From assembly GCA_020431405.1 (NCBI GenBank), contig JAGQIK010000095.1, positions 1 to 33,513 on the forward strand: 33,513 nt of DNA. Direction: 5' to 3'. Positions 4,760 through 32,144 of the stretch are shown in pieces. The notes under the pieces were generated by a model. That model worked only from the letters and a program-made list of their open reading frames with translations, was not told where the DNA came from and did not search any database. The position numbers and the translations under genes were made by a program. The first letter of the stretch is position 1, and each line of letters opens with the position of its first letter. The stretch is from Myxococcales bacterium (GTDB taxonomy: Bacteria; Myxococcota_A; Polyangia; GCA-2747355).

Positions 4760-6124
4760 CTACACGCCGATCATCATGCGCACCGGGTTTTCGATGCACT
4801 CGACGACGCGCTTGAGAAACGTCACCGCCTCGGCGCCATCGATGATGCGGTGGTCGTAAGAGAGCGCCAGATACATCATCGGCCGTACGGCGAGCTCGTC
4901 GCCGACGGCCACCGGGCGCTTCTTGATGCCGTGCATGCCGAGGATGCCGCTCTGCGGTGGGTTGAGGATCGGCGTCGAAAGCAGCGAGCCGTAGACGCCG
5001 CCGTTGCTGATGGTGAAGCAGCCGCCGCTGAGATCCTCGAGGGTCAGCGACTTGTCGCGCGCGCGCTGCGCCAGCTCGCCGATGCGGCGCTCGATGTCGG
5101 CGTAGCTCATCGACGCCGCGTCGCGTAGCACGGGCACCACCAGGCCGCGCTCGGTGCCGACGGCGACGCCGATATCGTAGACGTGCGGCTGCACGATCTC
5201 GTCGCCATCGATGCGCGCCGCCACCGCAGGCACGGCCTCGAGCGCCTCGACCACGGCTTTGACGAAGAACGACATGAAGCCGAGCTTGATGCCGTGCTTG
5301 GCGACGAAGGCGTCCTGCTGAGCCTTGCGCAGCGCCATCACCTCGCTCATGTCGACTTCGTTGAAGGTCGTCAGGATCGCCGCGTTCTGCTGCGCCTGCA
5401 CCAACCGCTGGGCGATGCGCCGGCGCATGCTGCTCATCTTGGTGCGCGTCTCGCGCGCTTGCTCCTCGCGCGCGCGCATCGCCGCGCCGCCGACCTCGAG
5501 CGGCGGCGGCGACGGTTTCGATTGCGCCGCGTGCGCGCCCGAGCCGCCCACCTGCGCGACCTCGATCTTCTTGCGCGCGCGCGACTGCACCTGCGCCTGC
5601 GCCTGCGACACGCGCTCGTCGCCCGACGCACTGTTGCTCGACGTCACGTGGGCCAGCACGTCGCCCTTGGTCAGGCGCCCGTCCTTGCCGCTGCCCTCGA
5701 TCTGCGCCGTGTCGACGTGATGCTCGGCCACCAGCCGCCGCACCGCCGGCGAGAGCCGCTCGCCCCCGTCCCCATCGCCAGCGCTCGTCGCCGCCGGCGC
5801 TGCCGCCGCGGGCGTCGCCGCCGCGGGTGTGGCCGCCGCGGGCGTGGCCGGTGCGCTCTGCTTTTCGGGCGCCGACACCGAACCGCTCGCCTGCTCGTCG
5901 ATGCTGCCCACCACCTGCCCGATCTCGACGTCGCTGCCGGCCTTGACCGTGATCTTCAGCTTGCCCGCGCTCACGGCGGGCACCTGCATCGTGATCTTGT
6001 CGGTCTCGAGCTCGAACAGCGGCTCGTCGCGCTGCACCATCTCGCCGTCAGACTTGAACCACTCGAGCAGCACACCTTCGGTGATCGACTCGCCCACCGA
6101 AGGGACTTTGATATCCACTGGCAC
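4760..6124 (-). CDS. sucB: dihydrolipoyllysine succinyltransferase (E2 of OGDH)
   Basis: The E2 core of the 2-oxoglutarate dehydrogenase complex, transferring succinyl from lipoyl to CoA. The 454-residue product starts [13 protein letters not shown]. It has an N-terminal lipoyl domain with the lipoylated lysine in ETDKITM (Lys43). An Ala/Pro-rich linker with tandem AATPA repeats follows. Next is a peripheral-subunit-binding domain ([11 protein letters not shown]...[14 protein letters not shown], about residues 133-172). The C-terminal acyltransferase domain carries the catalytic HRIIDG (His425, Asp429). No suitable ATG exists. The GTG at 6124 is preferred because GGAGAG lies nine bases upstream; another GTG at 6118 is less well spaced. 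It lies 26 bases after sucA and five bases before lpd. Confidence 0.95.
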
Positions 6125-6133
6125 GTTGTTTAG

Positions 6134-6139
6134 CTCTCC
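6134..6139 (-). promoter_or_regulatory. ribosome binding site deciding the sucB GTG start
   Basis: GGAGAG on the minus strand lies nine bases upstream of the GTG at 6124 and 15 bases upstream of the alternative GTG at 6118. This favours the first. Confidence 0.6.
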
Positions 6140-6150
6140 GATCTGGACGA

Positions 6151-8985
6151 CTAGCGCTCGCGCCCGGCGACGGCCTTGAGCTCGAGCGTCGGCGTCTGCG
6201 GCCGTTTGACCTCGCTGCCCAGCACGCTCTCGACGATCTCGGCCTGCTCTTCGCGGTGCACCCGCAGCGAGCCGGTCGACGCGCTGGCGCTGGCGCTGCG
6301 CCCGACGTAGGTGACGATGCGGTCGGGATACATCTGCAGCAGGTGCGGGAACATGAAGCTCCAGGCGCCGCGGTTCTTCGGCTCCTCTTGCACCCACAGA
6401 AGCTCGCGCGCCGCGCCGTAGCTGTCGATGACCTCCTTGAGCCGATCGACACGCAGCGGGTAGAGCTGCTCGACGCGCACCAGCGCGACGTGCTCGGCGC
6501 CGCGCATCTGCCGCGCCGCCTCGAGGTCGTAGTAGATCTTGCCCGAGCAGAGCACCACGCGGCGCGCCTTGGACGGCGCCTGCGGGTCATCGAGGATCTC
6601 CTGGAAGGTGCCCTCGGTGAGCTGCGACAGCGGCGACACGCACAGCTTGTTGCGCAGCAGGCTCTTGGGCGCCATCACCACCAGCGGCATGCGGAAGTTG
6701 CGCTTGATCTGGCGCCGCAGCATGTGGAAGTGCTGCGCCGGCGTGCTCGGGTAGCAGACCTGGATGTTCTCCTCGGCACAGGCCATCAAGTAGCGCTCGA
6801 GGTAGGCGTTGGAGTGCTCCGGCCCCTGCCCTTCGTAGCCGTGCGGCAGCAGCATCACGATGCCGCTGTCGCGCTGCCACTTGGACTCCGAGCCGGCGAT
6901 GAACTGATCGATGATCACCTGCGCGCCGTTGGCGAAGTCGCCGAACTGCGCCTCCCAGATGATGACCATGTTCGGCTCGGAGACCGAGTAGCCGTACTCG
7001 AAGCCGAGCACCGCCGCCTCGGACAGCGAGCTGTTGTAGACGCAGAAGCGCGACTGTCCGTCGCTGATCGCGTTGAGCGGCAGGTAGCGCTCGCCGCTCT
7101 CCATGTCACGCCACGCCGCATGGCGCTGCGAGAACGTGCCGCGCGCGCTGTCCTGCCCCGACAGGCGCACCGGCGTGCCTTCGGTGAGCAGCGTGCCGAA
7201 GGAGAGCAGCTCGGCAAAGCCCCAGTCGATGTCGCCGCCGCTCTGCACGATGTCGCGGCGCCCTTCGATCAGCCGCGCGACCTTGCGGTTGAGGTTGAAG
7301 CCTTGCGGCACGGTGGTCAGCGCTTCGGTGACGCGCGCGAGCTGCTCGCGCGTGACGGACGTATCGACCTCGTCGAAGCTGAACTTGGCGTCGAGCCCGC
7401 TCCAGTGCTTCTCGAAGGCCTGCACCTCGAGCGTCGGGTTTTCGCGCTTGGCCGCGCTGTGCGCGTCGTCGAGCTCGTCGCGAAAACGCGCCGCGATGCG
7501 CTCGGCCTCCTCTTCGGTGATGATGCGCTCGGTGAGCAGCCGCTCGGTGTAGAGCGCACGCACCGACGGGCGGTTGCGGATCTTGCGGTACAGCACCGGC
7601 TGCGTGAACGCCGGGTCGTCGCCCTCGTTGTGGCCGTGGCGGCGATAGCAGACGATGTCGACGACCACGTCGCGATGAAACTTCTGGCGGAAGCGCAGCG
7701 CCAGCTCCACGCAGTGCACGACGGCCTCGGGGTCGTCGCCGTTGACGTGAAAGATCGGCGCCTCGACCATCTTCGCCACGTCGGTGCTGTAGGTCGTCGA
7801 GCGCGCCTCGTCGGGCGTCGTCGTGAACCCGATCTGGTTGTTGACGATGATGTGCACCGTGCCGCCGACGTGGTAGCCGGGCAGCTTCGACAGCTGCAGC
7901 GTCTCGGAGACCACGCCCTGGCCGGCGAAGGCGGCGTCGCCGTGCAGCACCAACGGCAGCACGACGGCGCGATGATCGGTGTCGCCGCGCTGGCGCTGCT
8001 TGGCGCGCACGCGCCCCTCCACCACCGGATAGACGGCCTCGAGGTGGCTCGGGTTGGCGGTCAGACTGAGATGCACGGTGCGGCCGTGGCGCTCCACCGT
8101 CGAGCTGTAGCCCTTGTGGTACTTGACGTCGCCATCGCCCTGCACCGAGTCGGCGAGGAAGTTGCCCTCGAACTCGCTGAAGATCTGCTCGTAGGACATG
8201 CCGACGATGTTGCTCAGCACGTTGAGGCGGCCGCGATGGGCCATGCCGATCACGATCTCCTCGACGCCGAGCTCGGCCGATAGATCGATCACCGACTGCA
8301 TCGCTGGGATCAGCGTCTCGCCGCCCTCGAGCGAGAAGCGCTTTTGGCCCGGGTAGCGCGAGTGCACGAAGGTCTCGAACATCTCGGCGTCGATCAGCTC
8401 GGAGAGGATCCAGCGCTTGCGCGCGCGAGAGAGCACAGGCCGGTTGCGCACCGGCTCCATGCGCTCCTGCAGCCAGCGGCGCACCTCGCGCGACTGCACG
8501 TGGATGTACTCGACACCGACGCTGCGGCAGTAGGTCTGGCGCAGCACTTCCATGATCTCGCGCAGCGTGAGCTGGTCGGGCGCCTTGAGGTGGCCGGTGT
8601 CGAAGAGGCGGTCGAGGTCGGCGTTGGTGAAGCCGAACGACTCGAAGCCGAGCGCGGGGTGATGTGGGTCGATGCGCGGCTCGTCGCCGAGCGGATCCAG
8701 ATCGGCGGCGAGGTGCCCGAGGCTGCGGTAGGCGTAGATCAGGCTCGCGACGTTGGACTGCGCGCGTGCGTCCTGCACGGCCGCCAGATCGGGGCGCGGG
8801 CTCGGCGCTGGCGCGGCTTTTTGCCCGGCGGCGGCCGCGTCCTCGTCAGCGCTGCGCTGAAATCCGAGCTCGAATCCTTGGAAGAAGAGCTGCCAGTCGG
8901 GGTCGACGCTCTCGGGCGCCTCGCGCCAGCGCTGGTACATCTGCTCGATGTACTCGGGCCCGGCGATGGAGATCCTGTCGTTCAC
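6151..8985 (-). CDS. sucA: 2-oxoglutarate dehydrogenase E1 component
   Basis: The thiamine-diphosphate-dependent E1 of the TCA-cycle 2-oxoglutarate dehydrogenase complex. It decarboxylates 2-oxoglutarate and succinylates the lipoyl group of SucB. The 944-residue length is close to the usual ~930. The N-terminal region has [19 protein letters not shown], typical of E1o. Core motifs are [10 protein letters not shown] (about 248-257), [17 protein letters not shown] (about 308-324), GDAAFAGQG (349-357) and NNQIGFTT (382-389). The ThDP/Mg segment [11 protein letters not shown] follows. The GTG at 8985 is chosen because GGGAG lies 10 bases upstream; a GTG ten codons earlier lacks such a site. It is first in the order sucA-sucB-lpd-GNAT, with a 65-base gap from the DUF255 gene upstream. 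Confidence 0.97.
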
Positions 8986-8995
8986 GCTGGAGCTT

Positions 8996-9000
8996 CTCCC
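8996..9000 (-). promoter_or_regulatory. ribosome binding site deciding the sucA GTG start
   Basis: GGGAG on the minus strand ends 10 bases before the GTG at 8985. It lies inside the extended open frame, arguing against the more upstream GTG at 9015. Confidence 0.55.
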
Positions 9001-9050
9001 TTTGATTCCAAGCACCTATCGGGGGTGTTGGCGATGATAACAAGGGAGGA

Positions 9051-15033: not shown

Positions 15034-16025
15034 GTCGGCGAAAGCTCGCTCGCGACAACGCTCGCCGGTGCGCGCGCCTCCGCCTGCGGCTGCAAGCAGA
15101 CCTCGAGCAGCGCGCGCAGGCGCGCCGACTGTTTGACCGTGGCGACGCGCTCCTCGATGTGTCGCCGCGTCATGCGCCCTCGGATCCCCGCGACCACCTC
15201 TGCCGGCGTGGAGCCCGCCGGCGGCAGCAGCATCGTGCCGGTGAGCATCTCGAAGAGCAGCGCGCCAAAGGCCCACACGTCGGCGGCGCAGCTGACGCGC
15301 CCCGGCGCGCGGCCGGTGACGTCGTCAAGCAGCTCCGGCGCCATATACGACGGTGTGCCCGCCGCCAAGACCGTGCGCTGGCTGTCGTCGGGCAGCCGGC
15401 AGGCGCTGAGGTCCGACAGCAGCGCGTGCGACTGCGCGGCCTCGTGCTCGCCGGCGGCGACCACAAAGACGTTGGCCGGCTTGATGTCGCCGTGCACGAT
15501 GCGGTGCTCGGCCAGCGCCTCGAGCGCCTTGGCGATACCACGCGCGAGCCCGATACCGAGCAACGGGCTGAGCACCCGTCGCCGGATCAGGTGCTCGACG
15601 GTCACACGCGGCGGCGGCACGAGCGCCATCGTGTAGTAGCCCGTCTCGACAAAACCGCCGCCTTGGATGTCGGGGATCTGAGCGCGGGCGTAGTCGTAGA
15701 CCTGCACGATGTGCTCGTGCTCGACCATCGCCATCGCTTTGTATTCGGCGGCGAGCTGCACGTCGGCCGGCGCGAGGTTGCGCGATTGGCGCGAGAGCAG
15801 CTTGACGGCCACCTCGCGCCCGGCGCGCCGGTCGAGCGCGCGCCAGACCTGCCCCATGCCGCCCTGTCCGAGAAACTGCTGCAGCTCGTAGCGCCCGTCG
15901 AGCACCATGCCCGACTTCTGCATCACGGCGAAGGTCTGGCTGTCGGGCTCGAACGAGACACAGGCCTCGCAGAGCTCGTCCCCCTCCATCGCGGGCGCCC
16001 CACAAATCTCACACGGTGCAATCAC
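15030..16025 (-). CDS. Ser/Thr protein kinase with N-terminal zinc ribbon, atypical catalytic motifs
   Basis: A 331-residue Hanks-type kinase. Cys5/Cys8 (CEICG) and Cys19/Cys22 (CEAC) form a probable zinc ribbon. The kinase domain starts near residue 46. It has a glycine loop GQGGMGQVW (53-61), VAVK Lys75, a candidate C-helix Glu94 and the catalytic loop HGDIKPAN (Asp180, Lys182, Asn185). In place of DFG it has DLS (205-207), and the APE motif is YMAPELL. The catalytic and metal-binding Asp residues are kept, so activity is plausible. HGD instead of HRD suggests no activation-loop phosphorylation control. There is no membrane segment; the protein ends at the kinase domain. The GTG start is kept because it includes the first Cys pair. 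It is coupled to the downstream lipoprotein and divergent from feoAB. Confidence 0.88.
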   Translation of the reverse strand: MIAPCEICGAPAMEGDELCEACVSFEPDSQTFAVMQKSGMVLDGRYELQQFLGQGGMGQVWRALDRRAGREVAVKLLSRQSRNLAPADVQLAAEYKAMAMVEHEHIVQVYDYARAQIPDIQGGGFVETGYYTMALVPPPRVTVEHLIRRRVLSPLLGIGLARGIAKALEALAEHRIVHGDIKPANVFVVAAGEHEAAQSHALLSDLSACRLPDDSQRTVLAAGTPSYMAPELLDDVTGRAPGRVSCAADVWAFGALLFEMLTGTMLLPPAGSTPAEVVAGIRGRMTRRHIEERVATVKQSARLRALLEVCLQPQAEARAPASVVASELSPT

Positions 16026-16082
16026 GCCGACGCTCTGATGGTGCCACGACCACGCCCCCGTCGGGCCCTGGAAAACTGCTTT

Positions 16083-16097
16083 TGAGAATCACTTGCA
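16083..16097. promoter_or_regulatory. Fur-box-like site upstream of feoAB
   Basis: TGAGAATCACTTGCA matches the 7-1-7 Fur inverted repeat TGATAAT-N-ATTATCA at 11 of 14 arm positions. It lies in the 107-base divergent gap, 35 bases before the feoAB start. Iron-responsive repression of an Fe(II) transporter by Fur is the standard arrangement in proteobacteria, which supports the call. Confidence 0.55.
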
Positions 16098-16132
16098 AGT
16101 CGCTCTCGCAAGGGCTACTGCTCCAGCAGGTG

Positions 16133-18667
16133 ATGAGTAGTCTCGACAAGCTGCGGCGCGGCGAGGCCGCCGAGGTCGTGGCCGTCGGCGGCGAAGCCGC
16201 CTTTCGCCAACGCCTGCTCGAGATGGGGCTGGCGCCCGGCGTGCGCGTGCGCCGCGGCGGGGACGCGCCGCTCGGCGATCCCATCGAGGTCGAGCTGCGC
16301 GGCTATCGCCTCACGCTGCGCCGCGCCGACGCCGCGCACGTCGACGTGCGCCCGCCGCCGCAGCTGCAACCCGCAGCGCCCGCGCGCGAGCGACGTCCCA
16401 CCGGACCGCAGCTGCCCGCGCCACAACCCACTTCACGCGCGCTGCCGCGCATCGCCCTCGCAGGCAATCCCAACACCGGCAAGTCGACGCTCTTCAACCG
16501 CCTCACCGGCGGCCGCGCGCGCGTCGGCAACTACCCCGGCACCACCATCGACGTCGCCCGCGGGCGGCTGCGTCTCGGCGAGCGCGAGGTCGAGCTCGTC
16601 GACATCCCTGGCGCCTACAGCCTCAACACGCGCTCGGGTGAAGAACAGATCGCGATGGACGCGCTGATCGGCCGCACCGATGACGGCCCACCAGACGTGA
16701 TCGTCGTGATGCTCTGCGCCACCGCGCTCGAGCGCAGCCTCTATCTGCTGCTGCAGATCCAGGAGCTGGCGCTGCCCACGCTGGCGGTGGTGAACATGCT
16801 CGACGAGGCCGAGCGCTCGGGCGTGCGCATCGACGTCGAGGCCATCTCGGCGCACTTCGGCGTGCCCGCCATCGGCGTCGTGGCGCGCAGCGGCCGCGGC
16901 TGCGACGAGATCGTGCCGCAGCTGGCGGCGCTGCTCGACACGCCGCCGCCGGCGCAGCCGTGGCACTGGTCGCCGCCGCAGTGGCTCGAAGGCGCCCTCG
17001 ACGAGCTCGCGCCGGTGGCCAGCTCGGTGCTGGCCAACGGAGACGACGGCGAGGTGCCCGACGAGCGCGGCCGCGCGCTGGCGCTGTGGTCGCTGATGAG
17101 CCTGCGCGACGGCGAAGACTCGCTGCGCGTACCGCCGTCGCTGCGAACCCGCGCCGCCGGCGTTCGCTCCGAGCTGAGCGAGCGCGGCCACGACGTCGAC
17201 CTCGAGGTCACGCGCGCGCGCTATCGACACATCGACGAGGACGCGCGCAGCTTCATCGAGCGCCCCGCCGACCGCGCCGCCGACGCTGCCGCCGAGCGCG
17301 AGCGCGCCGGCGACGACAGCGGCAGCGTCGAGAGCGACACGCCCACATCGCGCACCGAGCGCATCGACGCCGTGCTGACGCACCCCGTGGCCGGCCTGCT
17401 GGTCTTCCTCGGCATCATGGCGCTGCTCTTCACGGCGATCTTCGACTGGGTCGCGCCCGTGATGGACGGCATCGACGCCGGCTTCAACGCGCTCTCGGCC
17501 GCCGCGCTGGCCGCGCTCCCTGAGGGCTTCCTCTCCGAGCTCTTCGCCAAGGGCGTGCTCAAAGGCGTCGGCGCGGTGGTGGTGTTCCTGCCGCAGATCC
17601 TGCTGCTGTTGTTCCTGCTGGCCCTGATGGAGGGCTCGGGCTACATGGCGCGCGCCGCCTACATGATGGACCGCGTGATGCGCGCGCTGGGCCTCTCGGG
17701 CAAGGCCTTCGTGCCGATGATCTCGGGCTACGCCTGCGCGATCCCCGCGATCCTCGCCACGCGCACGCTGCCCACGCGGCGCGACCGGCTGCTGACGATG
17801 GCCGTGATCCCGCTGATGAGCTGCTCGGCCCGCCTGCCGGTCTACTCGCTGATCGTCGCCACGCTGCTGCCGGCGCAAAAGAAGCTGCTCGGGCCGCTGA
17901 GCGTGGGCGCCGCGACGATGATGGGCGTCTACATCATCTCGACGATCCTCGCGCTGGTGGTCGCCGGCGTGCTCGGCAAGACGCTGCTCAAGGGACGCCA
18001 GCCACCGCTGCTGCTCGAGCTGCCGCCCTATCGTCTGCCTTCGCTGCGCGCGGTGGCCAGCGCGCTGTGGCAGAAGACGCGCGCCTTCTTGCGCACCGCT
18101 GGCACGGTGATCGTCATCGCCAGCTGCGTGCTGTGGGCGCTGCTCGCCTACCCCAAAGACGTCAAGCTCTCGCGCGACTACAAGGGCGCCATCGCCGCGG
18201 CCAAGCGCCGCGGCAACAAGGAGGCCGCCAAGCATCTCGCCGACGCGGCGCAAGCCGAGCGCACCGCGCAGAGCTACGCTGGCCGGCTGGGCCACGCCAT
18301 CGAGCCGGTGATCAAGCCGCTGGGCTTCGACTGGCAGATCGGCGTCGGCCTCATCGGCGCATTCGCCGCGCGCGAGGTCTTCGTCGCCACCATGGGCCTT
18401 GTCTACGGTGCCGGCGGCGAGGTCGACGAGAAGTCACCCACGCTGCGCCAGGCGATCAAACGTCAGCGCCGCTACACGCCGCTTGTGGCGATCTCGCTGA
18501 TCGTCTTCTTCATGGTCGCCATGCAGTGCGTCTCCACGCTCGCGATCATCCGCCAGGAGTCGGGCGGCTGGCGTTGGCCCCTGTTTACGCTCGCTTACCT
18601 CAGCGGCCTGGCCTACTTGCTGTCGTTTCTGACGTTCCAGATCGGTCGCGCGCTCGGCTTTTCGTAA
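16133..18667 (+). CDS. feoB: FeoA-FeoB fusion, ferrous iron transporter
   Basis: A fused Fe(II) uptake protein of 844 residues. Residues 1-75 are a FeoA/SH3-like domain (LRRGEAAEVVAVGG...RLLEMGLAPGVRV). A Pro-rich linker (about 74-104) follows, then the FeoB G domain. The G domain has G1 GNPNTGKS (111-118), G2 NYPGTT, G3 DIPGAYSL and G4 NMLDEA. An acidic spacer with SESDTPTSRTERID precedes the membrane part. The membrane domain carries the Gate/core motifs GYACAIPAILATRT and MSCSARLPVY. FeoA is usually a separate gene, so the fusion is notable. ATG 16133 starts directly at the FeoA domain; the preceding codon is also a possible GTG start. A Fur-like box lies upstream, supporting iron control. 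Confidence 0.95.
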   Translation: MSSLDKLRRGEAAEVVAVGGEAAFRQRLLEMGLAPGVRVRRGGDAPLGDPIEVELRGYRLTLRRADAAHVDVRPPPQLQPAAPARERRPTGPQLPAPQPTSRALPRIALAGNPNTGKSTLFNRLTGGRARVGNYPGTTIDVARGRLRLGEREVELVDIPGAYSLNTRSGEEQIAMDALIGRTDDGPPDVIVVMLCATALERSLYLLLQIQELALPTLAVVNMLDEAERSGVRIDVEAISAHFGVPAIGVVARSGRGCDEIVPQLAALLDTPPPAQPWHWSPPQWLEGALDELAPVASSVLANGDDGEVPDERGRALALWSLMSLRDGEDSLRVPPSLRTRAAGVRSELSERGHDVDLEVTRARYRHIDEDARSFIERPADRAADAAAERERAGDDSGSVESDTPTSRTERIDAVLTHPVAGLLVFLGIMALLFTAIFDWVAPVMDGIDAGFNALSAAALAALPEGFLSELFAKGVLKGVGAVVVFLPQILLLLFLLALMEGSGYMARAAYMMDRVMRALGLSGKAFVPMISGYACAIPAILATRTLPTRRDRLLTMAVIPLMSCSARLPVYSLIVATLLPAQKKLLGPLSVGAATMMGVYIISTILALVVAGVLGKTLLKGRQPPLLLELPPYRLPSLRAVASALWQKTRAFLRTAGTVIVIASCVLWALLAYPKDVKLSRDYKGAIAAAKRRGNKEAAKHLADAAQAERTAQSYAGRLGHAIEPVIKPLGFDWQIGVGLIGAFAAREVFVATMGLVYGAGGEVDEKSPTLRQAIKRQRRYTPLVAISLIVFFMVAMQCVSTLAIIRQESGGWRWPLFTLAYLSGLAYLLSFLTFQIGRALGFS

Positions 18668-25224: not shown

Positions 25225-26946
25225 CTACTGGCAGCCGGAGAAGACGGTCACGTCGTCGAGGTAGACGCCCTCGCCGCTGTTGTTCTGCAGCGTGACGGTG
25301 TCGAACCGAAAGACGATGCGCACCTGCCGTCCGGTCCAGTTGCTCAGCGACAGCGCGATCTGCTGCCACTGCTGTTGCGGCGTGCTCACCGAGCGACGCC
25401 AGATGCGGCCGCCCGTGCCGAGGATCGGCGCCACCTCGACATCGAGCAGATCCTCGAAGGGCGACGTCTGGGTGTCGAAGTAGACCCAGAAGCGGATGCC
25501 CGCCGAGATGCCCGCTTTGACGACAAACGCCTCGGTGGTGATCGTGCCGCTGTTGGCTAGCCCGTTGTCGAAGCTCTTCTTCGAGGGGTCACCGTAGTAG
25601 AACGACCAGCTGCCGCCGCCGGCGCGCCCGCTGTTGGTGAGCTGCCAGCCGACGTCCATGTGGCTGTTCATCACCGACCAGTCGGCGGGCACCTTGCCAT
25701 CCTCGAAGCCGAAAAAACGCACGTCGGCGTTGCTCGTGCCGGCGGTCCACTGCGTCGTGCTCTTGCTGACGTCACAAACAAGACAGCCGCCGGCCACCGC
25801 CTGCTTGTCGGCGTAGCACGAGCGGCCGATCTCGCAGCGGTTGGGCGCCGTGCTCCAGGCAAGCTGCGCTAGCGTGGCGTCACAGACCTGACAGGCATCG
25901 TTGGGGTTGCCGTCGCCGCTGTTGAAGCAGCTGCCGTCGACGTAGCACTGACCGGCGCCGATCGACCACTGCCTCTGGTTCGTGCTCGGATCGCAGCTGC
26001 CGCAGGGGATGCCCGCCGCACCGGCGCCGAAGCAGGCGCCGGCTATCAGGCAGCTCTGGGGCAGCACGGTCCACTCGCTGGTCGACTTGCTCGGGTCGCA
26101 GACGGCGCAGCTGCCCAGCGTGGCGTTGGCGGCGACACATTTGCCGTCGATGAAACAGCCGTCGACCTTGACCAGCGTGGGCTGGCCGTTGGAGAGCTCG
26201 CAGCGCGTACAGCCGTCGGCGGCGCTCTTTCCGAGCTCGACGCAGGCGCCGCCGCTGTCGACGCAGCCAGGGCGCAGCGTCCAGAGGGTGCTGCTCGTGT
26301 TGGGATCGCAGACATCGCAGCTGCCGGGGCGATTGGCGCCGGCGTCGGCGCAGGCGCCGTTGATCAAGCACTTGTCGGCGCGCACCTTGTTGTCGCAGGT
26401 GCCATCGCCGCGACACGCGTCGTCGGTGCAGGCGAGCCCGTCGTTGCAGCTATAGGGTGTGCCGCGGCACCTGCCGGCCTGGCAGCGGTCATTGCGCGTG
26501 CAAGGATCGCCGTCGTCGCACGCGCCGTTCGTGCGTGGGTACCAGCCGTTGGGCGATCGCAGCGAGTCGCACACGCCGCAGCTGTCCTTCGGGTTTTCGT
26601 CGCGGTCGCGGTAGCAAGTGCCGTCGATGACGCAGAAGCCGGGGCGCGGTTGGAAGAAGCACGAGCCGTTGGACAGGCAGCTGTCGTCGGTGCAGGCCAG
26701 CCCGTCGTCGCAGTTGCAGTCGCCCGAGTCGAAGCGCGGCCCGAGATCGCGCACGGCGCCATCGACTTGGTAGCAGAAGCTCCAGGCGCGGCAGTCCTCG
26801 TCCGCGCAGTCGGTGCGGCCGTCGCCATCGTTGTCGATGTTGTCGCGGCACTCGGCGGCGGAGGTCTCGAAGCCTTGCTCGAGCGGCGCGCGGCTCTCGA
26901 AGCAAGCCGGCAAGACGAGCAGCAGCGCGAGGAGTACATGGCGCAT
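25225..26946 (-). CDS. MopE-like Cys-rich repeat lipoprotein with C-terminal jelly-roll-like domain
   Basis: A 573-residue protein with signal VLLALLLVLPAC, lipid-modified Cys15. Directly after it is a MopE-type Asp-rich metal-binding motif (ECRDNIDNDGDGRTDCADE, about residues 33-51). Then come many Cys-rich units (about 70-405) with recurring patterns C.DG.ACTDD.C and C.IDG.C......GSC.VCDP..S...W. The last ~165 residues form a beta-rich domain (FFGFEDGKVPADWSVMNSHMD...YLDDVTVFSGCQ), like carbohydrate-binding or MAM-type jelly rolls. It is surface-exposed, perhaps adhesive or calcium-binding. ATG 26946 was chosen because it starts the signal peptide; the frame is open 75 codons further upstream but without signal character there. 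Confidence 0.85.
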   Translation of the reverse strand: MRHVLLALLLVLPACFESRAPLEQGFETSAAECRDNIDNDGDGRTDCADEDCRAWSFCYQVDGAVRDLGPRFDSGDCNCDDGLACTDDSCLSNGSCFFQPRPGFCVIDGTCYRDRDENPKDSCGVCDSLRSPNGWYPRTNGACDDGDPCTRNDRCQAGRCRGTPYSCNDGLACTDDACRGDGTCDNKVRADKCLINGACADAGANRPGSCDVCDPNTSSTLWTLRPGCVDSGGACVELGKSAADGCTRCELSNGQPTLVKVDGCFIDGKCVAANATLGSCAVCDPSKSTSEWTVLPQSCLIAGACFGAGAAGIPCGSCDPSTNQRQWSIGAGQCYVDGSCFNSGDGNPNDACQVCDATLAQLAWSTAPNRCEIGRSCYADKQAVAGGCLVCDVSKSTTQWTAGTSNADVRFFGFEDGKVPADWSVMNSHMDVGWQLTNSGRAGGGSWSFYYGDPSKKSFDNGLANSGTITTEAFVVKAGISAGIRFWVYFDTQTSPFEDLLDVEVAPILGTGGRIWRRSVSTPQQQWQQIALSLSNWTGRQVRIVFRFDTVTLQNNSGEGVYLDDVTVFSGCQ

Positions 26947-26966
26947 CTCGGCAATCGTAGCAGCCC

Positions 26967-26991
26967 AAGGCTGTGGATTCTCAAGGCTGTG
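26967..26991. repeat. AAGGCTGTG direct repeat upstream of two divergent genes
   Basis: AAGGCTGTG occurs exactly at 26967-26975 and 26983-26991, with start points 16 bases apart, in the divergent promoter region. It could be a tandem regulator half-site or chance. Confidence 0.35.
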
Positions 26992-26996
26992 ACACA

Positions 26997-27024
26997 GGTG
27001 CCCCTCGAATTCCTGAGGGGCGCC
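26997..27024. promoter_or_regulatory. GC-rich inverted repeat in divergent promoter region
   Basis: GGTGCCCCTC and GAGGGGCGCC flank an 8-base loop (GAATTCCT). They form a 10-bp stem with one G-U pair; the inner seven pairs are perfect. No T-run follows on either strand, so an operator or a leader hairpin is more likely than a terminator. Confidence 0.45.
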
Positions 27025-27046
27025 CGCGGCTAGCAGCCCGATTTCA

Positions 27047-27058
27047 TGACAGTTGTCA
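27047..27058. promoter_or_regulatory. TGACA-GT-TGTCA palindrome before the cytochrome gene
   Basis: Perfect 5-bp inverted arms end 33 bases before the GTG of the di-haem cytochrome gene. Position and symmetry fit an operator overlapping a promoter. I can name no regulator. Confidence 0.35.
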
Positions 27059-27091
27059 GCGTGGCCCCGGCCTTGCTCATAGACGCCGCCC

Positions 27092-28393
27092 GTGAGACGT
27101 CGCCTTGCCAGCATTCTCCTCACACTTGCCGTCCTCGGGGTGGCGATCGGCTGTGGCGTGGACGAGCCCACGGCGGAGCGCTACCTCGGGGACGGCGCCT
27201 TTCGTCGCGGCGTGCTCGAACGCTCGCTGTGGCGCCCCGACCTGCCCTACTCGCGCAGCCTGCTGGCGAGCTACGCGCTCGGCGACGCGGGCTGGGACCT
27301 GCTCTCACCGATGACCGAGCTGACAGCGCTCGTCACGCGCGCCGACAGCGAAGCGCTGCAGGCCGGCCGTGCGCTGAGCCTCGACGACGCCGAGCCCGTG
27401 GCGGGCGCCGGCAGCGACGTCGACGCGCTGCCCAGCGACGAGGCGGCCTGGGTCGCGCTGGGCAAGCGCGTCTTCGAGCGGCTGCCCATGCGGCCCGATG
27501 GCTTTCTGCGCTACCTCGTCGGCACGCCCGAGATCTGGCAGCGCGTAGGCATCCGCGAGCGCGCTGACGGCACGCTGCGCGGCATCGTCAAGTACCGCGA
27601 CGTGCGCGGTGACGTGCGCGTCGGGTTGACCTGCGCGCTGTGTCACGCCTCGCCATCCGACGACGCCGCGCTCGCGGCCGCACCGGCGCTGCAACGCAAC
27701 GGCGACAGCATCAACGGCCGCGCCGACCGCGGCCTCGACCTCGGCCTCGCGCGCGCGCTCGCCAGCGAAGCCAGCGGCGTGAGCGCCGACCCGCGCCTTC
27801 GCAGCTGGGGCGCCGGCCGCGTCGACGTCACCGACGACGGCGTCAACACGCCGACGGCCGTGCCCGACCTGTGGGCCATGCCGTACAAGACGCACCTCAA
27901 CCACAGCGGCGTGATCAAGATCGTCTCGCCCGCCACGTCCGCCGTGCGCTTCGAGACGCAGTACGTGCTCGGCCACCGCATGGAGACGCGCCCGCGCCGC
28001 GCGCTGACTTGGGCGCTGTCGCGCTACATCGCCGCGCTGCAGCCGCCGGCGCCCCCCAGCGCGCCGAGCGTGCCGCCGAGCGCCGAGCTCGCGCGCGGCA
28101 AGGCACTCTTCGGCGAGCGCTGCGCCAGCTGCCACCGCCCGGACCGCGGCTTCGCCGGCGAGATGGTGCTCGCCAGCCAGCTGATGCACGACCCCGCCGT
28201 GGCGACGACGCCCGAGCGCGGCACCGGCTACTACAAGGTGCCGAGCCTCGTCGGCGTGCGCTACGGCGCGCCCTATCTGCACGACGGCAGCGAGCCAACG
28301 CTGGCCTCGCTGCTCGAGCGCGGCCACCCGCGCGGCCGCGCCATCAGCGGCGACGACCAACGCGCCCTCATCGCTTACCTCGAAACCCTCTGA
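27092..28393 (+). CDS. di-haem cytochrome c lipoprotein, CCP/MauG-like
   Basis: A 433-residue exported protein with signal ending VAIGC (probable lipid-modified Cys21). Two haem c sites are present, CALCH (Cys181, Cys184, His185) and CASCH (Cys344, Cys347, His348). The C-terminal segment YKVPSLVGVRYGAPYLHDGSEP (split as residues 381-402) is the hallmark ending of the bacterial cytochrome c peroxidase/MauG superfamily. There it provides residues around the second haem. It acts as a periplasmic or outer-membrane peroxidase or oxidase; MauG relatives oxidise protein side chains. The GTG at 27092 begins the signal directly. It is the first gene of a plus-strand run with two paralogous lipoproteins, a Tat lipoprotein and a radical SAM enzyme. 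Whether it acts with them is inference. Confidence 0.85.
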   Translation: MRRRLASILLTLAVLGVAIGCGVDEPTAERYLGDGAFRRGVLERSLWRPDLPYSRSLLASYALGDAGWDLLSPMTELTALVTRADSEALQAGRALSLDDAEPVAGAGSDVDALPSDEAAWVALGKRVFERLPMRPDGFLRYLVGTPEIWQRVGIRERADGTLRGIVKYRDVRGDVRVGLTCALCHASPSDDAALAAAPALQRNGDSINGRADRGLDLGLARALASEASGVSADPRLRSWGAGRVDVTDDGVNTPTAVPDLWAMPYKTHLNHSGVIKIVSPATSAVRFETQYVLGHRMETRPRRALTWALSRYIAALQPPAPPSAPSVPPSAELARGKALFGERCASCHRPDRGFAGEMVLASQLMHDPAVATTPERGTGYYKVPSLVGVRYGAPYLHDGSEPTLASLLERGHPRGRAISGDDQRALIAYLETL

Positions 28394-28419
28394 AGACCAT
28401 CGTCGGGAAGGAACTAGAT

Positions 28420-28989
28420 ATGTCGCGTCTAAGGACCCTCAGAATGCTCACCGCCGTCAGCGCCATCGCGCTGCTCGGCATCGGCTGCGGCGGCCGCTCC
28501 ATCGAGGGCGAGACGCCGGCCAAGTCACTCGAGGTCAGCTACGTCTCGGGGCACCTCGGCAGCGATCAAGGCTGTTCGGCGAGCCGCGCGGCAGGCGACG
28601 CCGCCGGTGCCTTCGCGCCGTGCGAGCCGAGCGACACCAACTGCGGGCCGCCGCCGAGCTACTGCGAGGACGGCGCCGTGACGATCCAGCTCAGCAACGT
28701 CGGCGACGCCGCCTTCAAACAGCTCGACGTCGGCGCGCTGGTGCTGCGCGCGGTCGGCGGCGACGACAGCAACCTCGAGATCCTCGGCGTCACGCGCGAC
28801 GACGGCAGCAAGTTCGACGGCACGCTCGAGCCCACGCAGGCGATCAAGATCCGCGTCAAGTTCCCCGCGCCTGCCTACAGCAAGGTGCCCAAGGGCGCCA
28901 CGCTGCAGATCACCGTCGTCACGGACGGCGGCGGCGAAAAGCAGGTCGAGACGCCCGAGCTTCACGTGATGCCGATGTGGGCGACGTAG
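28420..28989 (+). CDS. lipoprotein, tandem paralogue A
   Basis: A 189-residue exported protein with signal AVSAIALLGIGC (lipid-modified Cys23). The mature part starts CGGRSIEGE, followed by LEVSYVSGHLGSDQGC. After that are three further cysteines, a GAVTIQLSNVG strand, RDDGSKFDGTLEP and FPAPAYSKVPKGATLQI. I recognise no family; the sequence looks like an all-beta domain with two disulfides. AAGGA lies eight bases before the ATG. It starts 26 bases after the cytochrome gene and 50 bases before its paralogue, so a single operon is likely. Confidence 0.8.
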   Translation: MSRLRTLRMLTAVSAIALLGIGCGGRSIEGETPAKSLEVSYVSGHLGSDQGCSASRAAGDAAGAFAPCEPSDTNCGPPPSYCEDGAVTIQLSNVGDAAFKQLDVGALVLRAVGGDDSNLEILGVTRDDGSKFDGTLEPTQAIKIRVKFPAPAYSKVPKGATLQITVVTDGGGEKQVETPELHVMPMWAT

Positions 28990-29039
28990 ACGCCAGCAAC
29001 TCTCCGCTTACAACGACAAACGATCACAGGAGCCATGCC

Positions 29040-29588
29040 ATGACCCGCTTCAAGACCACCTTCATCGCGCTGTGCGTCGCGCTCGCTGCGCTCGTCAGCG
29101 TCGCCGGCTGCGGCACCGACCGCGCCTTCGAGTCGCGCCTCGAGGTCAGCTACGTCTCGGGCCACCTCGGCACCGACCAAGGCTGCTCGTCCAATGCCAA
29201 GCTCGCCGACATCGCCGGCGCCTGCGCGGCGGACGTGCCCAACTGTGGCGGCTACGGCGGCTGCGAGGAGGGCGCGGTGACGCTGCAGCTGGCCAACACC
29301 GGCAACGTCACGCTGCTCGGCCTGCAGCTCGACTCGCTGCTGCTGCAGATCGTCGGCGGCAACCAGAGCGCGCTGAGCGTGCTCGACGTCAAGCGCGACG
29401 ACGGCAGCGCGTTCGACGGCAAGCTCGAGCCCAACGCGTCGATCAAGATCCGCGTGCGCTTCCCGGCCCCCGGCTACCAGAAGGTGCCCAAGGGCGCCAC
29501 CATCGAGGCCGTGATCGTCACGGGCGGCGGCAAGCAGCAGCGCGTCATCACGCCCGAGCTGCACGTGCTGCCCACGGTCGCGACCTAG
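29040..29588 (+). CDS. lipoprotein, tandem paralogue B
   Basis: A 182-residue lipoprotein with signal LVSVAGC (Cys24). It is about half identical by eye to the preceding gene. Shared are LEVSYVSGHLG[ST]DQGCS, the Cys spacing, GAVT[IL]QL.N.G, RDDGS.FDG.LEP and FPAP.Y.KVPKGAT, and both end in ATs before the stop (MWAT, TVAT). AGGAG lies seven bases before the ATG. The pair arose by tandem duplication and has diverged, so each copy probably has its own role. The function is unknown. Confidence 0.8.
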   Translation: MTRFKTTFIALCVALAALVSVAGCGTDRAFESRLEVSYVSGHLGTDQGCSSNAKLADIAGACAADVPNCGGYGGCEEGAVTLQLANTGNVTLLGLQLDSLLLQIVGGNQSALSVLDVKRDDGSAFDGKLEPNASIKIRVRFPAPGYQKVPKGATIEAVIVTGGGKQQRVITPELHVLPTVAT

Positions 29589-29741: not shown

Positions 29742-29763
29742 CCTCCCGCGCGCGGAGGCATCC

Positions 29764-30165
29764 ATGGGCAAACGCGACTTTCGCCAGGCTCACCACGACG
29801 TTCAACCGACCTACCCCACGCACCGCTCCGGTCTAGGGCGCCGCGAGTTTCTCGCCGGCGCCTTTCTTATCGCCGGCGGCGGCGCGCTGCTGAGCGCCTG
29901 CGGAGGTCGCGCCATCGAGGACGAGCCGAAGCCCAATCCGCAGCCTAATCCGAACCCACCGGAGCACTACGCCGGCGGCGCGCCGATGCCGCCAGCGCCG
30001 GCGGACGGGGGCCCGCCCGAGCCCGACGTACAGCCGCCCGACACGACGCACGACCGCGGCGAGCCCGACAGCGAGCCCGAGCACTGGGCCGGCGGCATGC
30101 CCGGCCCGCCCGCGCGCGTCGACGCCGGCGCCGCCGATGACAGCGGCGACTGCCCGCTGCCATGA
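29764..30165 (+). CDS. Tat-signal lipoprotein with PEH[YW]AGG repeats, candidate substrate of the adjacent radical SAM enzyme
   Basis: A 133-residue protein with a twin-arginine signal (GRREFLAGAFLIAGG, Arg26-Arg27) ending in a lipobox LSAC (Cys46). The mature part is short, unfolded-looking and rich in Pro, Asp, Glu and Gly. It holds two copies of one motif: PEHYAGGAPMPP (66-77) and PEHWAGGMPGPP (105-116). It ends GDCPLP with a single Cys130. After the lipid Cys it reads CGGRAIEDE, close to CGGRSIEGE in paralogue A. ATG 29764 has GGAGG five bases upstream. The gene overlaps the radical SAM gene by ATGA, so the two are made together. I infer a precursor modified in the cytoplasm before Tat export; this is not shown. 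No named RiPP family is recognised. Confidence 0.75.
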   Translation: MGKRDFRQAHHDVQPTYPTHRSGLGRREFLAGAFLIAGGGALLSACGGRAIEDEPKPNPQPNPNPPEHYAGGAPMPPAPADGGPPEPDVQPPDTTHDRGEPDSEPEHWAGGMPGPPARVDAGAADDSGDCPLP

Positions 30166-31307
30166 ACCTCACGCTGTTTCTCAACCACCGCTGCAACCTG
30201 CGCTGCAGCTACTGCTACACCGGCGAGAAGAAGAACCAGCCGATGTCGCTCGCCACGGCGCGCCGCGCCGTCGACTTCGGCCTCGAGCAGACCGAAAGCG
30301 GCGTGCTGCTGCTGTCGATGTTCGGCGGCGAGCCGCTGCTCGAGAGCGCGCTGATCGCGTCGGTGGTCGACTACGCGCGCTCCGCCGCCGAGCGCGCCGG
30401 CGTGCGCGTCTACTTCGGCGTCGCGACCAACGCCACGGTGCTGTCCGAGCGAACACTCGCGCTGCTGCGCCGCGAGCGCTTTCAGGTGCAGGTCAGCATC
30501 GACGGCGTGGCGGCGGCGCACGACGCTACGCGACGCTTCGTCGCCGGTCGCAGCTCGCACGCGCTGGTGCAGCGCAACCTGCTGCGCCTGCTACACAGCG
30601 GTCTGCGCGTGCGTGTAACCGCCGTCATCGATCCCGCCAACGTCGAGCACCTCGGCGCGAGCTTCGACTATCTCGTCGACCTCGGCGCGCGGGTCATCAA
30701 CTTCGCGCCCAACTACAGCGGCGCCTGGGACGATGACGCCTGCGCCCGCTTCGAGCGCGCCCTGCGCGAGCTCGGCGAGCGCTACATCGCGCGCATGCGC
30801 GCTGGCCAAGACGTGCGGCTCGATCCGCTCAACGGCAAGATCGTCACGCATCTGTCGGGCGGCTTCAGCAGCGCCCAGCGCTGTCAGTTCGGCCAGCAGG
30901 AGCTCGCCGTGGCGCCGAGCGGCCGGCTCTACCCTTGCGATCGGCTGGTCAACCAAGACGACGACGCCTCGGTGTGCATCGGCTCGCTCGAGCGCGGCAT
31001 CGACCACGCGCTGCGCGACGCGCTCGTCGCCGAAAAGAACGCGCCCGACGAAGAATGCGCTGCCTGTCCGCTCAGCGAGCGCTGCATGCGCTGGTGTGGC
31101 TGCGCCAACTACGAGACCACGGGCAGCGTCGCCCATGTCTCGGCGGTGCAGTGCTGGTTCGAGCGCTGCTTCATCGCCGAGGCCGACCGCGTCGCCAACG
31201 TGCTCTACACCGAGGGCGTGCCGGCCTTCACGCGGCGCTTCTACCTGCCCAGCCTGAAGCTCGCCGCAGCACCCTCGCGACGCGCGGTGCGCCCACAACC
31301 GCGCTGA
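30162..31307 (+). CDS. radical SAM/SPASM protein-modifying enzyme
   Basis: A 381-residue iron-sulfur enzyme. The AdoMet cluster motif is Cys11/Cys15/Cys18 (CNLRCSYC) directly at the N-terminus, followed by MFGGEP (53-58) for AdoMet binding and the VSIDG strand (111-115). The C-terminal SPASM domain fits the family rule exactly. Cys241 precedes GX4C (Cys259), then CX2CX5CX3C at Cys299/302/308/312, then Cys331, with further Cys at 272, 314 and 336. It can therefore carry two auxiliary clusters. Relatives include PqqE, MftC and sulfatase maturases, which act on peptides. There is no separate peptide-recognition domain. Coupling to the PEH[YW]AGG lipoprotein makes that the likely substrate; the reaction is unknown. 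Confidence 0.93.
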   Translation: MNLTLFLNHRCNLRCSYCYTGEKKNQPMSLATARRAVDFGLEQTESGVLLLSMFGGEPLLESALIASVVDYARSAAERAGVRVYFGVATNATVLSERTLALLRRERFQVQVSIDGVAAAHDATRRFVAGRSSHALVQRNLLRLLHSGLRVRVTAVIDPANVEHLGASFDYLVDLGARVINFAPNYSGAWDDDACARFERALRELGERYIARMRAGQDVRLDPLNGKIVTHLSGGFSSAQRCQFGQQELAVAPSGRLYPCDRLVNQDDDASVCIGSLERGIDHALRDALVAEKNAPDEECAACPLSERCMRWCGCANYETTGSVAHVSAVQCWFERCFIAEADRVANVLYTEGVPAFTRRFYLPSLKLAAAPSRRAVRPQPR

Positions 31308-31361: not shown

Positions 31362-32144
31362 ATGGGACAAAGGGCGTTGATGATAGTGGCCGCGGCCGCG
31401 GCTTTGGTGCTGGCAGGCTGTCCCGGAGGCGGCACCACGACGCGTGGAGACAGCTCCGCGCCAGTGCCCGACGCGCCGCCCGGTAGCTGCGGCGTAGCCA
31501 ACTGCGCGGGCTGCTGTTCGGGCGGTGTCTGCTACGGCGGCACGGAGACGACACGCTGCGGAACGACAGGTGCGCTGTGTGTCGATTGCAGCGCTGCTGG
31601 TAGCTGCGTCTCGCAACGCTGCAGTCAGTGCACGCCGAGCTGCAGCGGCGTTGTCTGCGGCCAGGGCGATGGCTGCGGCGGAGCCTGCGTCGCCGGGTCG
31701 GGCTGCACGCCGTCGGCGTGCACGCCGGTTTGTGCGGGCAAGCCGTGCGGCGACGCCGATGGTTGCGGCAGCGTATGCGTGGCGGGGTCGGGCTGCACGT
31801 CGTGTACGCCGAGCTGCGCCGACGCGATCTGCGGCGCCGCCGATGGCTGCGGCGGAACCTGCGCCGCCGGTTCGGGATGCTGTCCGAGCTGCCCGCAGTT
31901 CAAGACCTGTCGGGCCAGCAACTGCGTCAACGATTGTTCGCTCAGCACGTTCAGCGACTGCGCCACGCAGCAAACGCTCGTCATCTGGTACGGCCCATCG
32001 GTCAAGATCTCGCAGGCTGCCACGGCCTGCCCGCAGGCGACGCACTTCGCGATCACCGTCAACGGACAGTTCGTCAACTACTACACCGCGGGCGGCGGCA
32101 CCGACTTCACAGTCAACTGCGGTCAAGCGCTGTTTCTGGAGTAG
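31362..32144 (+). CDS. Cys-rich repeat lipoprotein
   Basis: A 260-residue protein with signal VAAAAALVLAGC (lipid-modified Cys20), a short linker and a Cys-rich region (about residues 43-190). This includes three units of the type C.PSCSGVVCGQGDGCGGAC, the same repeat family as the protein at 392-1276. The last ~60 residues are a small beta-rich domain (TLVIWYGPSVKISQAATACPQATH). It is surface-displayed and disulfide-rich, with unknown function. The ATG at 31362 begins the signal; an ATG at 31380 is an alternative. It lies 54 bases after the radical SAM gene on the same strand; I see no specific functional link. Confidence 0.82.
   Translation: MGQRALMIVAAAAALVLAGCPGGGTTTRGDSSAPVPDAPPGSCGVANCAGCCSGGVCYGGTETTRCGTTGALCVDCSAAGSCVSQRCSQCTPSCSGVVCGQGDGCGGACVAGSGCTPSACTPVCAGKPCGDADGCGSVCVAGSGCTSCTPSCADAICGAADGCGGTCAAGSGCCPSCPQFKTCRASNCVNDCSLSTFSDCATQQTLVIWYGPSVKISQAATACPQATHFAITVNGQFVNYYTAGGGTDFTVNCGQALFLE

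Follow-up and report, generated by a model that had tools for sequence, protein, structure and literature searches.

A Tat lipoprotein and an adjoining radical SAM/SPASM enzyme as a candidate substrate and maturase pair in Myxococcota

Does a small lipoprotein gene that overlaps the gene of a radical SAM/SPASM enzyme in a Myxococcales contig mark a dedicated protein modification system and, if so, which part of the lipoprotein is the target? We addressed this question computationally in a 33,513-bp stretch of DNA (contig JAGQIK010000095.1, positions 1 to 33,513; hereafter the window), for which an initial annotation had proposed an undescribed system acting on PEH[YW]AGG repeats. The computation established a conserved pairing of the two genes, a shared leader motif, a recurring core motif and an additional cysteine in the SPASM domain of the enzyme. 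We put the probability at roughly two in three that the genes encode a maturase and its substrate, such that the leader is recognised, the motifs are modified and the product is then exported by the Tat route.

The candidate substrate is a Tat lipoprotein of 133 amino acids encoded at 29,764–30,165 (+), an open reading frame that matched the leader model described below with E = 6e-14. A ribosome-binding site, GGAGG (29,754–29,758, +; read directly), lies 5 nt 5' of the ATG at 29,764, and an alternative upstream GTG start (29,725) is without a comparable site. On the same strand, the gene encodes a Tyr-Pro leader motif N-terminal to the Tat motif (residues 17–18; 29,812–29,817), which is conserved in the partners of homologous enzymes, followed by the twin-arginine motif RREFL (residues 26–30, twin Arg at 26–27; 29,839–29,853) and the lipobox LSAC (residues 43–46; 29,890–29,901) with Cys46 at the predicted signal peptidase II site, the latter two motifs being read directly. 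Two modules, PEHYAGGAPMPP (residues 66–77; 29,959–29,994, +) and PEHWAGGMPGPP (residues 105–116; 30,076–30,111, +), sit in a Pro/Asp-rich tail and agree in 9 of their 12 residues and in 26 of the 36 nt encoding them. Both modules are free of Cys, and the protein has a Cys in a C-terminal DCPLP. Its stop codon overlaps the ATG of the enzyme gene (30,162) as ATGA. The open reading frame, its modules and the overlap are real, and the initial annotation had described and placed them correctly. Neither a sigma-70 promoter nor a terminator was found near the two-gene operon. An NCBIfam search with the lipoprotein returned no relevant model at E ≤ 1, including the companion lipoprotein of the TIGR04133 system, and no NCBIfam or Pfam model names the candidate substrate.

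The second gene (30,162–31,307, +) encodes a radical SAM/SPASM enzyme of 381 amino acids (Pfam Radical_SAM, 6.5e-14; AlphaFold2 model with pLDDT 92 and pTM 0.88). Ligands of the SAM-binding [4Fe–4S] cluster are provided by CNLRCSYC (30,192–30,215, +), whose cysteines are invariant in 17 homologues. The SPASM domain extends from C241 to C331 (30,882–31,154, +) and scored 17.2 bits with the Pfam SPASM model, under the cut-off of 21.5, and the complete cysteine pattern reported for it previously (C241, C259, C299, C302, C308, C312 and C331) is present and invariant in the alignment of the 17 homologues. The same alignment revealed an additional invariant cysteine, C314, that is absent from the initial annotation. 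Together with C312 (C312-G-C314; 31,095–31,103, +), it forms the C-x3-C-x-C end of a C-x2-C-x5-C-x3-C-x-C pattern found in 82 of 87 near relatives (enzymes scoring at least 155 bits) compared to none of 26 remote SPASM enzymes. The equivalent site reads CGGGCPQE in a true PapB from Paenibacillus and CSGGCAAN in CteB, both without the extra cysteine. Because of this distribution, we regard C314 as a hallmark of the family. A role as a free catalytic cysteine was considered and is weakened by a subclade of four members (f36; L040, L162–L164) that keeps C314 and has lost C312, so that C314 may replace a cluster ligand; by sequence comparison, it may serve either as a cluster ligand or as a catalytic residue.

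Membership in the radical SAM/SPASM superfamily is evident from the CxxxCxxC and SPASM cysteines and from the fold of the model, which matches CteB and anaerobic sulfatase maturase (anSME; Z = 33.3). CteB (5wgg) was the closest PDB fold among the matches listed (Z = 38.9, rmsd 2.3 over 338 residues) and was aligned only from its residue 94, and its N-terminal peptide-binding domain is therefore missing in the window enzyme. The protein begins at the radical SAM domain and is without an N-terminal RRE domain, a domain present in some RiPP enzymes and not in all. At the family level, the enzyme stayed under the curated cut-offs of all of the best 25 NCBIfam models listed, in line with the initial annotation, in which the system could not be matched to a named RiPP family. 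The top score was to PapB (NF047865; 219.5–220.1 bits versus a cut-off of 340), with the true PapB member from the Paenibacillus genome reaching 435.3 bits against 220.1 for the window enzyme on the same model. QhpD came second (TIGR03906; 165 versus 453), and scores were likewise low for TIGR04064 (155 versus 519), sulfatase maturases (TIGR03942; 92.7 versus 349.45) and rSAM_w_lipo (TIGR04133; 28.5 versus 425). In the set of cyclophane-type models (GrrM/OscB, FxsB, XyeB, YhhB and AmcB), the enzyme scored 63.5 of the required 310 for GrrM, 67.6 of 370 for FxsB, 65.6 of 445 for YhhB and 78.7 of 425 for AmcB, and XyeB was outside the best 25 models listed. Based on these cut-offs, we rejected membership in the PapB, TIGR04133, QhpD, sulfatase maturase and cyclophane families.

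Homologous enzymes were taken from the same class and phylum (Myxococcota) and from named genome records, including those of Akkermansia, Saprospiraceae, Lachnospiraceae, Lentisphaerae and Fibrobacter. Tat or Sec lipoproteins adjoin the homologues in Myxococcota and, at greater distance, those in Akkermansia, Saprospiraceae, Lachnospiraceae and Fibrobacter. The closest relative, in genome G001 (enzyme 59% identical), keeps the same gene pair with five analogous modules in the lipoprotein, whereas none of the window's flanking genes was found around it, leaving only these two genes common to both loci; for this reason, the pairing appears to be more than chance. Using a detector blind to Tyr-Pro, a lipoprotein-like open reading frame was found beside 31 of 58 near relatives, and several partners were missed because their Tat signal is without a lipobox (L029 and G200) or their segments are atypical. 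Tyr-Pro before a hydrophobic segment occurred in the neighbours of 25 of the 58 near relatives compared to 1 of 51 remote SPASM enzymes (Fisher p = 1e-7), and 12 of 13 loci fetched later (L214–L226) had a Tyr-Pro lipoprotein partner. On the enzyme tree, the clade of the window enzyme (37 rows, SH-aLRT 96) contains 27 rows with such a partner, and one locus outside the clade (L226) has one as well. In some cases, several precursors stand in a row 5' of one enzyme (G040, G019, G027 and G200). About half of the near relatives have no Tyr-Pro lipoprotein neighbour within the stretch examined, some of them lying at contig ends, and in certain subclades (f22, parts of f12 and f24, and Planctomycetes) the partners differ or are not apparent. 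Conversely, G303 and G062 contain precursors, and no near enzyme was found in these assemblies, which are 86–87% complete. As is typical of RiPPs, the candidate substrate gene adjoins that of the modifying enzyme.

In G056 (L179–L187), about ten Tyr-Pro leader proteins are scattered genome-wide and a single near enzyme is located at a contig start; many of these proteins combine a small folded domain with core motifs placed both behind the signal and C-terminally, and they are apparently substrates in trans.

The leader shared by the Tat members has the consensus P-x-Y-P, a short spacer and then R-R-x-F-L, with Tyr-Pro and Arg-Arg invariant in aligned rows that were chosen partly by Tyr-Pro. 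In other members, for example from Akkermansia, Tyr-Pro stands directly before a Sec-type lipoprotein signal. When the leader model was applied to 379 genomes of the phylum, matches covering Tyr-Pro were found in seven, six of which also encode the enzyme (the seventh is G303), and the only strong match in the window genome was the window lipoprotein itself. The combination of a conserved leader with a variable and repeated core is another RiPP-type trait. A second leader type (RPVxxYxxPxYP-like) was observed at L042, L044, L031, L037, L149, L165, L033 and L058, where the adjoining enzymes are somewhat more distant and have the same SPASM hallmark; the partners at L042 and L044 have APIFQHG/APLFLHG and TGC motifs in common, and the core motif is mostly absent from them.

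The core pattern [ADG]-G-[GD]-[IMAV]-x-x-P recurs in partner tails that are otherwise unrelated and vary in composition and length, for example as LAGDVEQP and SGGIQAP (G001), LAGDMPAP and VDGDMEIP (G324), LDGGIGEP (G062), VDGDMAIP (G179), AGDIAYPY and GGGAPAPF (G508), IEGDLAMP (Lentisphaerae) and LAGVIADP (Fibrobacter). Modules 1 and 2 of the window fit it as AGGAPMP and AGGMPGP, respectively. Because the pattern was first spotted by eye, its count in the first 45 precursors (19 sites of the strict form versus 0.26 in shuffles) is post hoc. A cleaner test, although part of its proteins belong to families encountered earlier, was provided by 16 new precursors for which the patterns had been frozen beforehand: we found 23 sites versus 1.7 in shuffles, and 9 versus 0.16 for the strict form, with 0 of 1,000 shuffles reaching either number. 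Site density was 6.45 per 1,000 amino acids in precursors compared to 1.10 in other lipoprotein-like open reading frames of the same loci, and the mid pattern was absent from 32 of 61 precursors. At close positions around G....P, enrichment was strongest at +2 (Met 8.6-fold, Ile 6.0-fold), followed by Tyr at +6/+7 and by L/I/M at −2. Some tails contain a folded domain besides the motif; in a Tyr-Pro leader lipoprotein (L028:1829-2563), the predicted fold resembles a FliL periplasmic or FliL/stomatin-like domain (Foldseek E = 3e-4, TM 0.70–0.77 on target) and is followed by VPGGIVAP. A Pfam search of the partner domains gave no significant match.

The literal PEH[YW]AGG is a local variant of the broader motif. 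As a family motif it was rejected, having been seen in the window only among the loci searched, with one distant case (G274, enzyme 39% identical) that keeps YAGGMP within GGYAGGMPEPW. The initial annotation had named enzyme homologues without a motif-bearing neighbour as an observation that would refute it; this observation was made for the literal repeat, but the neighbours hold the broader form.

That annotation had further placed the modification on the Tyr/Trp or His of each EH[YW] and suggested a cyclophane or a His–aromatic crosslink, chemistry for which three-residue cyclophanes offer a model. The window protein agrees with it, His and Tyr or Trp being present in both modules, as do the G274 sequence, the Trp before several G001 modules and the aromatics enriched at +6/+7 in other members. 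Neither residue is conserved in homologues, however: L, P, V and I predominate at the Y/W position (−2), besides other residues, aromatics at −2 or −1 are confined to 6 of 78 motif sites, and at 25 of the 78 the stretch from −5 to +7 is free of Y/W/F/H. With cyclophane-family scores also far under their cut-offs, we consider this chemistry very unlikely. A ranthipeptide-like thioether maturase of the PapB/CteB/QhpD type, which would form a bond between the sulphur of a Cys and a carbon of a side chain, is quite unlikely as well. The family scores (PapB, then QhpD), the CteB-like fold, the lipobox Cys kept in precursors and the DCPLP cysteine of the window protein would suit such an enzyme, but the PapB cut-off is not reached, true PapB is without the extra SPASM cysteine, the modules are Cys-free, a Cys lies near only 4 of 78 motif sites (−5 to +9), and no lipobox Cys accompanies the Tat signal in the partners at L029 and G200 and in one of those in G062. 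Because of these three site counts, neither aromatic-ring nor thioether chemistry is favoured as the common reaction.

It is also conceivable, though unlikely, that the motif serves in binding or sorting and is not itself modified, and that the enzyme targets a different part of the partner, such as a folded domain or the lipobox region, or another substrate. The motif does flank a folded domain in several members, one of them FliL-like, and the mid pattern is missing from many partners; against this, the window protein and many others consist of little beyond a leader and a motif-bearing tail, and no other gene is common to the window and its closest relative, G001. Finally, such genomes encode several SPASM enzymes, and one of them could stand beside an ordinary, unrelated lipoprotein by chance, but the probability of this is close to negligible given the ATGA overlap, the pairing across families and phyla (p = 1e-7) and the shared leader motif.

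We therefore return to a maturase and its substrate, the core of the original proposal, which the conserved pairing and the shared leader and core motifs support. The best reading is that the window enzyme represents a new family of RiPP-like maturases for exported lipoproteins. The ATGA overlap would couple translation of substrate and enzyme, and the enzyme, having no RRE, would bind the cytoplasmic precursor via the Tyr-Pro stretch in front of the export signal. A 5'-deoxyadenosyl radical, with the auxiliary iron–sulphur clusters, would then introduce the modification at every [ADG]-G-[GD]-[IMAV]-x-x-P site of the disordered tail, including both sites of the window lipoprotein. The modified precursor would subsequently be exported by the Tat machinery, lipidated and cut at the lipobox by signal peptidase II, so that the tail is displayed on a membrane. 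Modification in the cytoplasm fits the export of finished proteins by Tat, and maturation before export, as first suggested, is probably the order of steps.

The motif sites have no invariant residue with a reactive side chain, and the aliphatic residue at +2 is the best-constrained neighbour of the anchored Gly. As to the reaction, our tentative guess is therefore a change at a backbone alpha carbon or an aliphatic C–H around the Gly and the +2 residue, epimerisation being one option. More doubtful is the full picture of an unnamed, multi-phylum radical SAM family that would introduce a backbone-centred change (D-residues or another alpha-carbon modification) into a Gly-centred motif of surface lipoproteins, with the export signal as leader and the extra SPASM cysteine as a catalytic residue.

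The surroundings of the pair were also inspected. Directly 5' lie two tandem paralogous lipoproteins (28,400–29,588, +; SLEVSYVSGHLGSDQGC and RLEVSYVSGHLGTDQGC) without a Pfam match, preceded by a lipoprotein with a C-terminal cytochrome c domain (27,092–28,393, +; Pfam RoxA-like 6.7e-7, Cytochrom_C 1.1e-6) and a large Cys-rich protein (25,225–27,171, −) in which CDP-type units are repeated and for which Pfam likewise gave no match. Beginning 54 nt 3' of the enzyme gene, a Cys-rich lipoprotein (31,362–32,144, +) has CxPxCxxxxCGxxDGCGGxCxxGSGC-type repeats and was not found near the G001 enzyme. Elsewhere, the window encodes a single protein with a FeoA domain fused N-terminal to FeoB (16,016–18,667, +) and the E1 (6,151–9,015, −) and E2 (4,760–6,397, −) components of 2-oxoglutarate dehydrogenase. 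The window genome (G000) contains two more SPASM enzymes: one (L021; G000:C146:10087-11067) is preceded by an open reading frame of very long Asp/Glu runs and the other (L022; C276:1160-2155) by a Tat lipoprotein with CTxCTGGSTG repeats and no Tyr-Pro leader, possibly another radical SAM and lipoprotein pair.

None of the curated protein families searched here provides a name for the enzyme–lipoprotein pair, and a literature search for radical SAM, lipoprotein and Tat RiPPs returned no description of it, although one may exist outside the literature covered. Several known systems nonetheless work in a similar manner. The rSAM/lipoprotein system (TIGR04133) likewise places a radical SAM gene beside a lipoprotein thought to be modified, and a TIGR04133-like enzyme of G043 (under the cut-off) has a lipoprotein open reading frame directly before it (L133); in contrast to the window pair, that partner has ACYGPPDGEWP and no Tyr-Pro leader, and the window enzyme scores far too low for the family. 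The PapB model is also short (330 positions), was matched from its start and gave the closest score, but the Cys-free modules, the extra SPASM cysteine and the exported lipoprotein substrate set the window system apart from PapB and CteB. Anaerobic sulfatase maturases and QhpD are also SPASM enzymes, and their protein substrates are modified while still cytoplasmic and exported afterwards; the window partner is neither a sulfatase nor an amine dehydrogenase subunit, and scores are again far under the cut-offs. Export signals on RiPP precursors are reported to be rare and are known chiefly from MNIO systems (PMC12452194). In bufferins and further RiPPs of the MNIO type, a Sec signal peptide serves as leader, and some of the precursors are predicted lipoproteins (PMC12452194), but they are modified by MNIO enzymes, mostly at Cys, whereas the window system has a radical SAM enzyme, Tat as well as Sec signals and a Cys-free motif. 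By the tests made here, the window system thus resembles rSAM/lipoprotein pairs, sulfatase and QhpD maturation and MNIO bufferins in its apparent working and is a member of none of them. A vague annotation of a SPASM enzyme next to a lipoprotein would be replaced by a defined family that extends to gut bacteria such as Akkermansia, comes with searchable and testable signatures (leader motif, target motif and enzyme hallmark) and offers a minimal two-gene system for biochemistry. It would be a large radical SAM counterpart to the MNIO export-signal RiPPs, in part with the Tat route and lipid anchors.
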